Below are positions 32,797-36,249 of a DNA stretch of 42,724 bases, piece after piece. Under the pieces are notes generated by a model that saw only the letters and a program-made list of their open reading frames with translations, was not told where the DNA came from and did not search any database. Each line of letters starts with the position of its first letter. Position 1 is the first letter of the stretch. This DNA is from Natronohydrobacter sp. Its GTDB lineage: Bacteria > Pseudomonadota > Alphaproteobacteria > Rhodobacterales > Rhodobacteraceae. The position numbers were made by a program, and so were the translations under genes. The stretch lies in contig JAFIEM010000017.1 of NCBI GenBank assembly GCA_020832555.1, forward strand, positions 1 to 42,724, written 5' to 3'.

Positions 32797-33198
32797 ATGA
32801 TCATCGGGATCGGCACGGATCTGGCTAATATCGACCGGATCGCAGGCACGCTGGCACGCTTCGGCGACCGGTTTCGACATCGTGTGTTTACCGAGGAAGA
32901 GCGCGCGCGCGCCGGGCGGAGCGGGGATGATGCTGCGACCTATGCCAAACGCTGGGCCGCGAAAGAGGCCTGCTCGAAGGCGTTGGGAACGGGGCTTGCG
33001 ATGGGCATATCCTGGCGCGACATGTGGGTGACGAATCTGAAGGGCGGGCAGCCGGTGATGCATGTCTCGGGATGGGCGGCAGAACGTCTGGCGGCGCTGA
33101 CACCGGAAGGGCATGAGGCGGTGATCCATGTCAGCCTGACCGATGACGCCCCTTGGGCGCAGGCGTTTGTGGTGATCGAGGCACGCAGGTTGCGGTGA
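32797..33198 (+). CDS. acpS: Holo-[acyl-carrier-protein] synthase
   Basis: AcpS moves the 4'-phosphopantetheine group of CoA onto acyl carrier protein. The 133-residue protein has [13 protein letters not shown] (metal-binding Asp8) and [14 protein letters not shown] (Glu near 52), the two key blocks. GWAAERL and [18 protein letters not shown] follow. It starts 10 bases after pdxJ, with GAGG upstream. In related genomes lepB, rnc and era come next; here the operon ends. Confidence 0.95.
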
Positions 33199-33416
33199 GT
33201 CGTTTTGCTGCTTCTCGCACCTGAAATCTGAGCACTCGCGCGCCTTATTCTTTCGGCTATGTGATCAATTCTACCCTGAACCCGTAAATTGTTCACGAAC
33301 TGCCGCCCAGGGTTTCATCGCGTCTCTCAGAAAAAGGTAAAGTTCCATAAAATGCTTGCGAAAAGCTGCTATTTCGGTGCACCACGGAGTCACGAAAAAC
33401 CGATACAAGGTGCATC

Positions 33417-33587
33417 ATGTTCAATTTTTGGAATTGGTTCGGATCAGGCGGGAGCAGCAGCACTCCCACGACCACAGTCGCCGTGCCCGAAATCGACGCA
33501 TCGACAGGGCTTCTGGCGATGGCCGCAGTCGGCGCGGCGCTGCTTTTTGCTTGGGAACGTCGTCGCAGGCTCGCATCGGGGAAATAA
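33417..33587 (+). CDS. VPEID-CTERM sorting-domain protein, 56 aa (exosortase substrate)
   Basis: Translated by hand. The protein reads MFNFWNWFGSGGSSSTPTTT, then VAVPEIDAST, a hydrophobic helix GLLAMAAVGAALLFAW, and the basic end ERRRRLASGK. VPEID, one membrane helix and an Arg-rich tail are exactly the VPEID-CTERM sorting signal, recognised by exosortase E. Nearly the entire protein is sorting signal; the part before it is 22 residues rich in Ser, Thr, Gly and aromatic residues, with no signal peptide. AAGGTG precedes the ATG and a perfect terminator follows at 33623. The convergent neighbour encodes exosortase E itself. Confidence 0.88.
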   Translation: MFNFWNWFGSGGSSSTPTTTVAVPEIDASTGLLAMAAVGAALLFAWERRRRLASGK

Positions 33588-33622
33588 ATCCGCTCATCGA
33601 TCAACCGCCAGACATAAATAAC

Positions 33623-33650
33623 CGCGCCGTGCTGCCACGGCGCGTTTTTT
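33623..33650 (+). terminator. Rho-independent terminator after the VPEID-CTERM gene
   Basis: CGCGCCGTG (33623-33631) and CACGGCGCG (33636-33644) form a perfect 9-base stem with a CTGC loop, followed by six T. It lies 36 bases after the stop of the small VPEID-CTERM gene and 20 bases before the end of the convergent exosortase gene. Confidence 0.88.
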
Positions 33651-33669
33651 CATATGGTGAAATCGTTTT

Positions 33670-35268
33670 TCAGATCAGCCCCCAATCGCCCGTGATCACC
33701 GCCCCCAGCGCCACTATGGCATTCGCGGCGATATGGGCCTGAACCGCATCTGTGACCCGTCCCCGGCGCAGGGCGCACCAGGCAAAGACCAGCCCGGCGA
33801 GAGTCGCTTCCAGATAGCGACCATGCAGGACCGCAAAGACTGCGGTCGACACCGCGACGGCCAGCAGCTTGCGCGGCCAGCCGTCCCCGTCCAGCCGCGA
33901 CAGGATATAGCCGCGAAAGAACAGTTCTTCGATCAGCGGCACCAGCAGAACCGTCCCGATCAGCCGCGACACGCTCCAGACCACAGCGGCGGCCAGCGAC
34001 ATGCCCCCCAGCATCGCGGCCAGTTCGGCCCCCGATGCCGATGCGCCGCCTTGCGAGACGATCCAAAGCACTCCCACCGCAGCCCCCAGACCCCATGACA
34101 GCGGGTCGATCTGCCATGGCAGGGCGCGCAGCAGGGCCAGAAAGGGCAAGACCGCCGCACACATGATCGCCACACGCAGCGGGTATCCAAGCGCGGCCGG
34201 GTCAAACAGCGCCGCCGCGATCAGTCCCGAGACCATGAAGGCCACGAAAGGCAGGATCTGCGCGGCGGTCATGTCCTGTGTGATCGGGGTGGAGGGGGCG
34301 CGGGCCTCGACCCGGTGCAGGGCGTTCGAGCGGTGCACCAGCGCCAGAATGGCAAGCGCCAGCAGGGTGAAGAAAATCCAGCCTGCATAGCTGTGAAACC
34401 CGTCCACGGCCAATTGCGGCGAGACATGCGCGCCCAGCAGCACCAGCACTGCGATGCGGATGATATTGAGCACCCAACTGGCCAGAAGTGCCAGCGGCAG
34501 AACGATCAGCCAGAAACGACCATGCCGGATCGTGGCGTGAAACAGCACGGCATAGAGGGCGACAAAGCCGCCCACCAGCACGAAACCTTCGACGCCAGAG
34601 CATTGCGCGGCGATATGCACCGCGAAATCCTCGACACCCAGAACGAAGGTTTCGGGATCGGCGAAAGCATCTGTCCCCAGCAGACGCAGAAGCACGAAGA
34701 CCAGCGCGAAGGTCAGGAAGGTCAGGGCCTGAATGTTCCACAAGGGCTGCACGGCCTGCGCCAATTCGGGCATGATCATGACGAAGGCCAGCACTGCCGC
34801 CCCCAGCCAGCCAAGCTGTCGCAAGAGCCATGCCCAATCCGACCAAGGTGCGACCCAGCGCAAGGTGGCGGGGATAATGAGCGCACCGCCCAGCAGCCAG
34901 ATCGGCACGGCGCGGGCAAATTCGGCGGGGCCTGCACCCTCGGCCAGAATCAGGGCGGGCAGCAGCAGCACGGCAAACCCCGCCCAAGTGGCCAGCCCGG
35001 CGAGGCGGGTGATGCGCGATGTGATCGCGGCGCGGCGGGCGAAAGCGGCGAAGATCGCGGGACGCGCGAGAACCAGCACGCCGATCCCGGTCAGAAGTGC
35101 GAGGCTGCGCCCCAAGGCCGAGCGCAGCCCCCGGCACAGTTCGAAAGACCCGGTTGCGCCGCAGTCGATTTCGATGACGAACTGGTATAGCCCCGCCAAT
35201 GCAATCAGTTGCGCCAGCACCAGCCCGGCCAGATAGAGCGCCCGATGCTGCGTCAGCCCTTCGGTCAT
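33670..35268 (-). CDS. xrtE: Exosortase E / CPBP intramembrane protease fusion
   Basis: This protein of about 532 residues is almost all membrane helices and joins two enzymes. The N-terminal exosortase has the catalytic Cys223 (AAQCSGVEGF), Arg271 (NIIRIAVL) and His292 (VDGFHSYAGWIFF). The C-terminal part (about 330-532) is a CPBP/CAAX-type protease with Glu447-Glu448 (LIEELFFRGYIL), His482 (AVLHGRYLEA) and His512 (AHIAANAI). This is the layout of the exosortase E/protease of VPEID-CTERM systems. It should cleave and anchor the small substrate encoded next door. ATG 35268 has GAAAG upstream; ATG 35316 is an alternative. Confidence 0.93.
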   Translation of the reverse strand: MTEGLTQHRALYLAGLVLAQLIALAGLYQFVIEIDCGATGSFELCRGLRSALGRSLALLTGIGVLVLARPAIFAAFARRAAITSRITRLAGLATWAGFAVLLLPALILAEGAGPAEFARAVPIWLLGGALIIPATLRWVAPWSDWAWLLRQLGWLGAAVLAFVMIMPELAQAVQPLWNIQALTFLTFALVFVLLRLLGTDAFADPETFVLGVEDFAVHIAAQCSGVEGFVLVGGFVALYAVLFHATIRHGRFWLIVLPLALLASWVLNIIRIAVLVLLGAHVSPQLAVDGFHSYAGWIFFTLLALAILALVHRSNALHRVEARAPSTPITQDMTAAQILPFVAFMVSGLIAAALFDPAALGYPLRVAIMCAAVLPFLALLRALPWQIDPLSWGLGAAVGVLWIVSQGGASASGAELAAMLGGMSLAAAVVWSVSRLIGTVLLVPLIEELFFRGYILSRLDGDGWPRKLLAVAVSTAVFAVLHGRYLEATLAGLVFAWCALRRGRVTDAVQAHIAANAIVALGAVITGDWGLI

Positions 35269-35455
35269 TGGCGTTCTTTCGAGGGTTGGATCATTGGGGT
35301 TCTGGGCAGAAAACATGATTTGGGTCTGTCAATTGGCTCGGGTCGGGTGTTTGTGCAGGGCAATCGCGGCGTTTTTTTGACATCGGGACGATAATGTTCA
35401 TGAGCGCCTTGCCACATAGGCGGAGATTGCGGGCGCGATCCGGCTGACATGGCAA

Positions 35456-36175
35456 TCAGGCGGTATCGAGCTGGGTGACAAGCCGTGCGCGGGCCTCGGG
35501 CAAGGGGCGGCCTGTGCTTTCTGCAAGCCAGTGATGCAGGAAATAGCCGCTCAGGTGCAGCGCCTGTCGCAACTGGATGACGTCAAATCCGGCATTTTCG
35601 TCGATCAGGGCCGGGGGTAGGGCTAGCAAGCGGTCGGCATAGGCACCGGCACCCGCGACGGTTACTGCGCGTCCGCTGCGGGGCGAGACATAGGCCAGAC
35701 CATCCTGCGCGCCCGTCACAGCGCATTGTTGCAGATCAAGGCCGAAACCTGTGGTGTCCAGCAGGTGCAATTCCCAGTGTGCATACATGCGCAACCATCC
35801 TGGCTGGCCCAACTGGTCGAGCAGCTGGGCAGTCTGGCTATAAAAGCCCGGATAGGCCATCCGCTCGGGCAAGGCATAGCGGCACAGGGCGCAGATCGCG
35901 TTGAGTGCAGCGAGTGCGAGGCGGTCGCCCAGAATCCCGCCCGCGCGGGCCTGAAGCAGCTCGACCGTGAAGCTGCCCAGCTGCTCTTCCAGCCGCGCGC
36001 GCCATGTCAGGTCAAGCTGAGCGCCCGGTTGCAGGGTCGCGGCCATCTTGCGTGACGCCCCCCCGCGCACGACACCGGCATGGCGTCCATGAAGGGCCGA
36101 GAACACCTCGATGATCGCCGTGGCTTCGCCATGACGTTGCACGCGCAGCAATATTCCTTGGTCCCGCCAGTCCAT
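35456..36175 (-). CDS. recO: DNA repair protein RecO
   Basis: RecO works with RecR (and RecF) to load RecA on SSB-coated DNA. The 239-residue protein has the OB-fold opening [21 protein letters not shown], then [38 protein letters not shown] and [16 protein letters not shown], all typical. ATG 36175 is chosen because family members start MDWRD or similar and AAGG lies upstream; the frame extends to 36211. In relatives it follows lepB-rnc-era; these genes are missing here. Confidence 0.93.
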
Positions 36176-36249
36176 GCGCCAAGGCTTGCCGCGCGCATGG
36201 CGGCGCGGCAAGGGCTTTTCATCGTCGCCGGGTGTATTAGAATCCGGTC

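Follow-up and report, generated by a model that had tools for sequence, protein, structure and literature searches.

Sortase-like systems have been described as acting on proteins that are exported by means of a signal peptide. In the PEP-CTERM/EpsH system, as presented in PMC1569441, each client carries a motif, a helix and a basic tail, and the enzyme carries Cys-x-Gly, Asn-x-x-Arg and His-x-x-x-Gly motifs; EpsH is proposed there to act at the client motif on the periplasmic face. The median number of clients per genome with this system is eight, and a signal peptide is almost always present (97% of PEP-CTERM proteins after start-site re-analysis). In MrtJ/JDVT-CTERM (PMC11980579), a CPBP-family sorting enzyme lies beside a single target, and the same source calls the exact processing site and the lipid of archaeosortase unclear.

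The most closely related family has been named in NCBIfam as exosortase E (TIGR04162) and VPEID-CTERM (TIGR04161), and most of the VPEID-CTERM proteins have a signal peptide. Among the papers searched, we found none on this pair and no experiment on any VPEID-CTERM protein; an earlier mention of short or leaderless clients is possible in the 2012 archaeosortase/exosortase paper, which lay outside the search. Public annotation of Rhodobacterales plasmids already uses both names. The Pf3 coat protein is made without a leader. It is a small single-span protein whose N-terminal tail is moved across the membrane by YidC and whose C-terminal tail is cytoplasmic (PMC9360617, PMC8920935). Unlike a VPEID-CTERM client, it has neither a sorting motif nor sortase-like processing, and no homology between the two is claimed.

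Here, a window of 42,724 nucleotides (contig JAFIEM010000017.1, Natronohydrobacter sp.) was analysed, in which both proteins of the exosortase E/VPEID-CTERM pair are found above the curated cut-offs. The client motif, helix and basic tail and the three enzyme motifs are common to this pair and PEP-CTERM/EpsH, and on some plasmids the enzyme gene, xrtE, likewise lies near polysaccharide genes. Instead of a median of eight clients, however, there is one client of 56 residues, and the enzyme is fused to a CPBP protease, unlike the usual EpsH, although four EpsH–CAAX protease fusions are already reported in PMC1569441. The MrtJ system differs by its separate sorting motif, and the portion of PMC11980579 that describes it does not mention an exosortase half. 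The pair itself is already named; the unusual point is the recurrent absence of the leader from its clients. How a client without a signal peptide reaches the membrane, which the first-pass annotation of the window had left open, is the real point of interest, as leaderless clients recur in several lineages.

The client and its exosortase E

The features of the locus are the following, with positions in the window.

32797 to 33198, plus strand: acpS, left neighbour (PF01648)
33408 to 33412, plus strand: Shine-Dalgarno-like AGGTG, 4 nt 5' of the client ATG (sequence)
33417 to 33587, plus strand: leaderless VPEID-CTERM mini-protein, 56 residues (open reading frame; TIGR04161, 59 bits, curated cut-off 33)
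33417 to 33443, plus strand: N-terminal aromatic patch MFNFWNWFG, residues 1-9 (matches in genus relatives, equivalents in other lineages)
33444 to 33482, plus strand: Gly/Ser/Thr/Pro linker, residues 10-22 (sequence, alignment)
33483 to 33497, plus strand: VPEID motif, residues 23-27 (residue 23 is the start of the TIGR04161 match)
33507 to 33554, plus strand: hydrophobic helix, residues 31-46, approximate, placed by eye (sequence; within the TIGR04161 match)
33555 to 33584, plus strand: C-terminal Arg-rich tail, residues 47-56 (sequence)
33623 to 33650, plus strand: terminator-like site between the convergent genes, 9-bp stem and T6 (sequence scan)
33670 to 35316, minus strand: xrtE, 548 residues, exosortase E (N-terminal part) fused to a CPBP/Rce1-like protease (C-terminal part) (TIGR04162, PF09721, PF02517)
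35456 to 36211, minus strand: recO, right neighbour (PF02565/PF11967)

The small gene encodes, in this order, 22 residues (MFNFWNWFG and a 13-residue Ser/Thr/Gly-rich stretch), VPEID, a single helix and ERRRR, and is a member of the VPEID-CTERM family (E 3.4e-16). The XrtE frame matches TIGR04162 with 499.9 bits (cut-off 150) and has separate matches to the exosortase (PF09721) and Rce1-like (PF02517) models. These TIGR04161 and TIGR04162 scores exclude chance as an explanation of the two open reading frames. The first-pass annotation had read the small gene as VPEID, one helix and an Arg-rich tail behind about 22 residues without a signal peptide, and the convergent gene as exosortase E fused to a CPBP protease, and both readings were borne out. 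Its start for xrtE, 35268, is not the first ATG, which lies at 35316, but an internal ATG and an alternative start.

The genes converge tail to tail, with 82 bp between their stop codons, and the pair lies between acpS and recO; the genes closest to it, acpS, pdxJ and recO, have housekeeping functions. A promoter scan gave a single weak site on the minus strand. At 33261-33296, upstream of the small gene, there is an imperfect inverted repeat (GTGATCAATT, 16 bases, AATTGTTCAC), which by eye is clear in three and less marked in two of the five genus loci aligned. It is a possible operator or promoter element.

The exosortase and CPBP catalytic motifs have been named in PMC1569441 and PMC11980579. 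In XrtE, residues C238, R286, H307, E462, E463, H497 and H527 (with numbering that begins after the first ATG) do not vary across the 42 aligned rows and are all present in the window, as is the CPBP asparagine N531, which occurs in at least 90% of the rows. Two cysteines of the N-terminal region, C51 and C60 in alignment numbering, are also invariant in the 42 sequences and possibly form a disulfide. An AlphaFold2 model of XrtE (mean pLDDT 88.3) gave no Foldseek match against the PDB at E <= 0.001.

The client has no N-terminal signal peptide or hydrophobic leader, and starts at the aromatic patch. The best 10-residue mean hydropathy from the ATG is -0.20, and the open frame offers no other start codon ahead of VPEID. 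A frameshifted or upstream leader was ruled out by inspection of the upstream frames and of the five aligned genus loci, which showed no hydrophobic leader. The signal peptide that marks PEP-CTERM-type exosortase clients is likewise lacking in 23 of the 76 client copies counted below, the window client among them.

Further VPEID-CTERM proteins, which the first-pass annotation had proposed to look for and which would have refuted its reading if many were of normal length, were not found in the genome: the client is the sole TIGR04161 hit up to E 10. With 86.2% completeness and 238 contigs, the assembly could have missed a second client. Two additional weak matches from a protein search (E 0.24 and 1.4) lay within long frames and are not VPEID-CTERM hits. 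The genome has one EpsH-family exosortase, and no match to PF07589 (PEP-CTERM) was found at E <= 0.1 in the five genus genomes that have the client-xrtE pair.

Client size and the conserved N-terminal peptide

Clients near exosortase E were compared in 76 copies, the window included, namely 45 leader-bearing VPEID, 23 leaderless and 8 VPEIS copies (L138, L145, the third L108 copy and L137, at 19 bits, were left out). The leader calls are heuristic: a script gave 29 rows without and 52 with a signal peptide, and L096, L131, L132, L144 and L151, below its threshold, were moved by eye to the leader-bearing class. The median segment between leader and VPEID is 26 residues in leader-bearing VPEID clients, 22 in leaderless clients and 16.5 in VPEIS clients. 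A tiny client is the norm of this family and not peculiar to the window. The description of the window client as almost only a sorting signal holds for this protein, but not as a novelty, given the family norm and the name that NCBIfam has already assigned to the pair. At the same time, the tiny cargo of the whole family supports a short peptide as the product, as had been suggested at first pass. The other product suggested there, the cleaved Arg tail, is neither favoured nor disfavoured by these results.

Of the 16 residues that open the mature chain, at least two are aromatic in 22 of the 23 leaderless copies, in 35 of the 45 VPEID copies with a leader and in 0 of 8 VPEIS copies. The patch is therefore not universal, with 10 leader-bearing VPEID copies and all VPEIS copies below this threshold, although L089 and L092 fall there because their cleavage site was set too early, as were the sites of some others. 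In leader-bearing VPEID clients, a Trp-rich patch mostly follows soon after the predicted cleavage site, such as AQ-SYSWWSWWGGW in L091. With and without a leader, what is conserved is the short N-terminal peptide and not a lost cargo.

In three clades, the N-terminal part of leaderless clients has a pN/pS of 0.43, 0.52 and 0.35, compared to 0.08-0.18 from VPEID to the end; the values are rough, with synonymous sites near saturation. Such ratios indicate purifying selection on the short peptide, weaker than on the tag. Lys and Arg are more numerous in the C-terminal tail than in the N-terminal part in 23 of 23 leaderless copies; the tail always has at least four, and the N-terminal part has one or two in 11 of the 23.

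Occurrence of the pair and origins of leaderless clients

The closest named enzymes to the window XrtE are from Natronohydrobacter records; three are 92, 91 and 71% identical along the length, and a partial one 82%. Among 37 genomes of the genus, the window's included, five have exosortase E over the cut-off, and the same five each have one VPEID-CTERM protein. All five clients are leaderless, and the four others start with MWSFWNWFG, MFNFWNWFG, MWSFLNSFW and MGSRWNWFG. The genus gave 36 recO matches, of which 30 loci were examined: xrtE adjoins recO in 5, a further 7 have pdxJ, acpS and recO grouped but lack the pair, and the examined stretch has neither acpS nor xrtE in 18. This pattern fits the gain or loss of client and xrtE as a two-gene unit. 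In another genome of the genus (G254; C384:1555-1923, also L068), a weak 30-bit XrtE match has two internal stops, and the xrtE frame at L106:6001-7596 also contains a stop codon; both appear to be degraded or residual copies, if the stops are not sequencing errors.

Within the family, 248 genomes were sampled; the client is found in 31, XrtE in 32 and both in 29. The two genes are adjacent by coordinates in 27 of these 29 (not in G034, nor in G146, where they fall on different contigs). A single client match was obtained in 29 of the 31 client-bearing genomes. As most carriers have a single enzyme and a single client, the system is self-contained as far as seen, as the first-pass annotation had called it. 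Across the class, the enzyme was found in 4 of 385 genomes, one of these outside the family of the window, and it occurs on 12 plasmid records at E <= 1e-20. A VPEID/VPEIS-CTERM frame of at least 25 bits lies near xrtE in 75 of 80 named loci (L077, among the five others, ends at xrtE); these loci were the 80 most similar to the query out of 183, and leaderless kin of the window are over-represented among them. The client is downstream of xrtE and convergent with it in 68 of 79 rows, L138 being counted twice. Two xrtE loci, L090 (titled Nocardioides marinus) and L125 (titled Exiguobacterium profundum), fall among Rhodobacteraceae on the tree and are probably mislabelled or contaminated assemblies.

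Most relatives of the client carry a signal peptide, and by eye only 2 of the 31 client-bearing genomes of the family sample, the window's and G027, have leaderless forms. Nine loci from Roseovarius and an allied MAG also encode leaderless clients (MWNWFF..., MFDWFW...); the clients of three more Roseovarius loci, L092, L110 and L151, do carry a leader. Further leaderless clients are found in Marivita and allied MAGs (MFWDSWRIFF..., MSWLDRIRIF..., 5 loci), in the tandem array L108 of an alphaproteobacterial MAG (MSNFWCHWFG...), in the Rhodobacteraceae MAG L078 and in the Rhodobacter-like MAG L081 (MNWWNWW...). A tree was built of 81 exosortase E proteins. Its 21 rows without a leader and 54 rows with one (L077, L080, L082, L118, L137 and L145 being unlabelled) require four changes. 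Over 200 bootstrap trees the 5-95% range is 4-4, and well-supported branches demand at least three of the changes; the remaining one comes from the MAG L081 alone, whose position has weak support. A single clade of all leaderless rows is rejected (245 log units worse, p-AU 6.6e-7), and forcing the Roseovarius and Marivita leaderless clades together, a group chosen post hoc, is 106 log units worse (p 1.75e-4). The tree is of XrtE and not of the clients, so that swaps of clients could mimic repeated leader loss. The count of changes gives no direction; the leader is probably the ancestral state, because it is present in most relatives and in PEP-CTERM proteins generally.

Neighbouring genes were searched for a third component by clustering of open reading frames of at least 90 residues in 81 loci, and they track lineage. 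The commonest is an AcrB-type RND gene (28 of 81 loci), always within one 30-row clade of the enzyme tree that includes leader-bearing and leaderless clients. RND-adaptor-like frames are found in 24 loci, MipZ in 13 Shimia-like loci, and ABC transporter frames in 26 loci of several lineages, a large family whose members the clustering may have merged. Ten of the 81 loci encode a large SdrD_B-domain protein of one family; the client is of the VPEIS type in nine of them and VPEID in one (L135). The RND, ABC, MipZ and SdrD_B genes were rejected as parts of the system and, in our judgement, reflect shared sites. The SdrD_B/cadherin-like genes are at L131:2352-5507 (the copy scanned for domains), L105, L128, L132, L133, L135, L137, L139, L144 and L150, and SdrD B-like proteins are annotated beside xrtE on two plasmids. 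At nine loci (L081, L087, L094, L100, L111, L113, L119, L125 and L136), the pair lies near rpsL- and rpsG-like genes, and rpoC and fusA are each also beside eight of the nine, a second housekeeping site for the pair; these four gene names are assigned from the look of the sequences.

Near plasmid-borne xrtE, glycosyltransferase, polysaccharide export, flippase or sugar transferase genes are present in five of the eight regions viewed out of the 12 records (H1-H5, not H6, H7 and H12; 3-12 kb on each side). Such surroundings favour a glycan-associated surface peptide as the product.

Proposed membrane insertion and processing, and alternative readings

We favour, with moderate confidence, a dedicated one-enzyme, one-client exosortase E cassette that makes a surface-linked, Trp-rich mini-peptide, and whose leaderless clients insert N-out, perhaps via YidC. 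In the form that is probably ancestral, a Sec signal peptide would export the client and then be cut off, which would leave the aromatic patch near the mature N-terminus. In the lineage of the window and, independently, in others, the leader would have been lost and the initiator Met placed directly on the patch. A short, low-charge N-terminal tail and an Arg-rich C-terminal tail predict an N-out orientation, so a leaderless client may insert N-out/C-in as a single span, plausibly through YidC by analogy with Pf3 coat. XrtE, with its Cys-Arg-His residues expected on the periplasmic side, would then cut near VPEID and hand the peptide to an acceptor; cleavage and attachment are extrapolated here from other sortase-like systems. 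The predicted product is a peptide of about 22-28 residues, Trp-rich and Gly/Ser/Thr-linked, its new C-terminus joined to a putative envelope molecule. The fused CPBP half probably has the same protein as its substrate, or else the helix that remains after cleavage.

A more far-reaching version, which we hold only tentatively, is a signal-peptide-independent exosortase pathway, in which clients have repeatedly become ready-made mature peptides with their own N-terminus (often Met-Trp or Met-Phe), are inserted tail-first via YidC and are then joined by the C-terminus to a surface molecule. A comparably possible, if still less than even, account is that the client remains dependent on Sec/SRP, its C-terminal helix serving as a reverse signal-anchor with no special role for YidC, and that loss of the leader is tolerated since the tail is short. 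The very short N-terminal parts (19-26 residues) and positive C-terminal tails agree with this account, and leader-bearing forms average more charged residues before VPEID (2.7 vs 1.5) and have a longer segment there (median 26 vs 22), as though such chains had more need of a leader. Sequence does not distinguish it from a YidC-only route, however, and a helix so near the C-terminus would leave the ribosome late, a point on which PMC13261788 bears.

Two other explanations have lower standing. That the leaderless client is in decay or wrongly called, being non-functional or having its true start or signal peptide elsewhere, might be thought of because the assembly is fragmented (238 contigs, 86% complete), because PEP-CTERM proteins so rarely lack a signal peptide (PMC1569441) and because some leaderless frames, such as L075, have an extra upstream start codon. 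We regard it as very improbable: no start codon yields a hydrophobic leader (best value 1.30 in the 23 copies vs 1.76-2.71 in the leader-bearing class of the script), in the genus client L065 (L076 is the same client) a stop lies upstream of the Met with just one codon in between, and the same architecture is found in all five genus clients and in other lineages. Moreover, a Shine-Dalgarno match of at least 4 nt precedes 22 of the 23 leaderless copies, and selection on their N-terminal part argues in the same direction. An unlikely, though less remote, explanation is a small Trp/Phe-rich membrane-active toxin or signal that is processed by XrtE/CPBP, with release and not attachment as its function. 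Its size and Trp/Phe-rich start would suit, and the CPBP family is named in PMC11980579 for CaaX proteases and bacteriocin processing, but no immunity-like gene recurs beside the pair among neighbour frames of at least 90 residues, the recurrent RND efflux gene is confined to one clade, and the polysaccharide genes in the plasmid regions point elsewhere.

For the favoured cassette, a leader discarded more than once with the same short peptide kept would make the peptide, and not a large cargo, the product of the enzyme. If the signal-peptide-independent pathway is true, one cassette of two genes yields a Trp-rich peptide linked to the surface. With two genes, one enzyme and one 56-residue client, the locus is a minimal system for exosortase biochemistry, and so small a client is well suited to mass spectrometry of the processing site and of the attached molecule.

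Larger sets of clients also occur. At L108:7588-8573 (the same array as L042:3055-4040), three tandem VPEID-CTERM genes lie beside one exosortase E; at least two of them are leaderless, with N-terminal parts unlike each other. The genome with this array, G027, has a fourth VPEID-CTERM gene, with a leader, on another contig.
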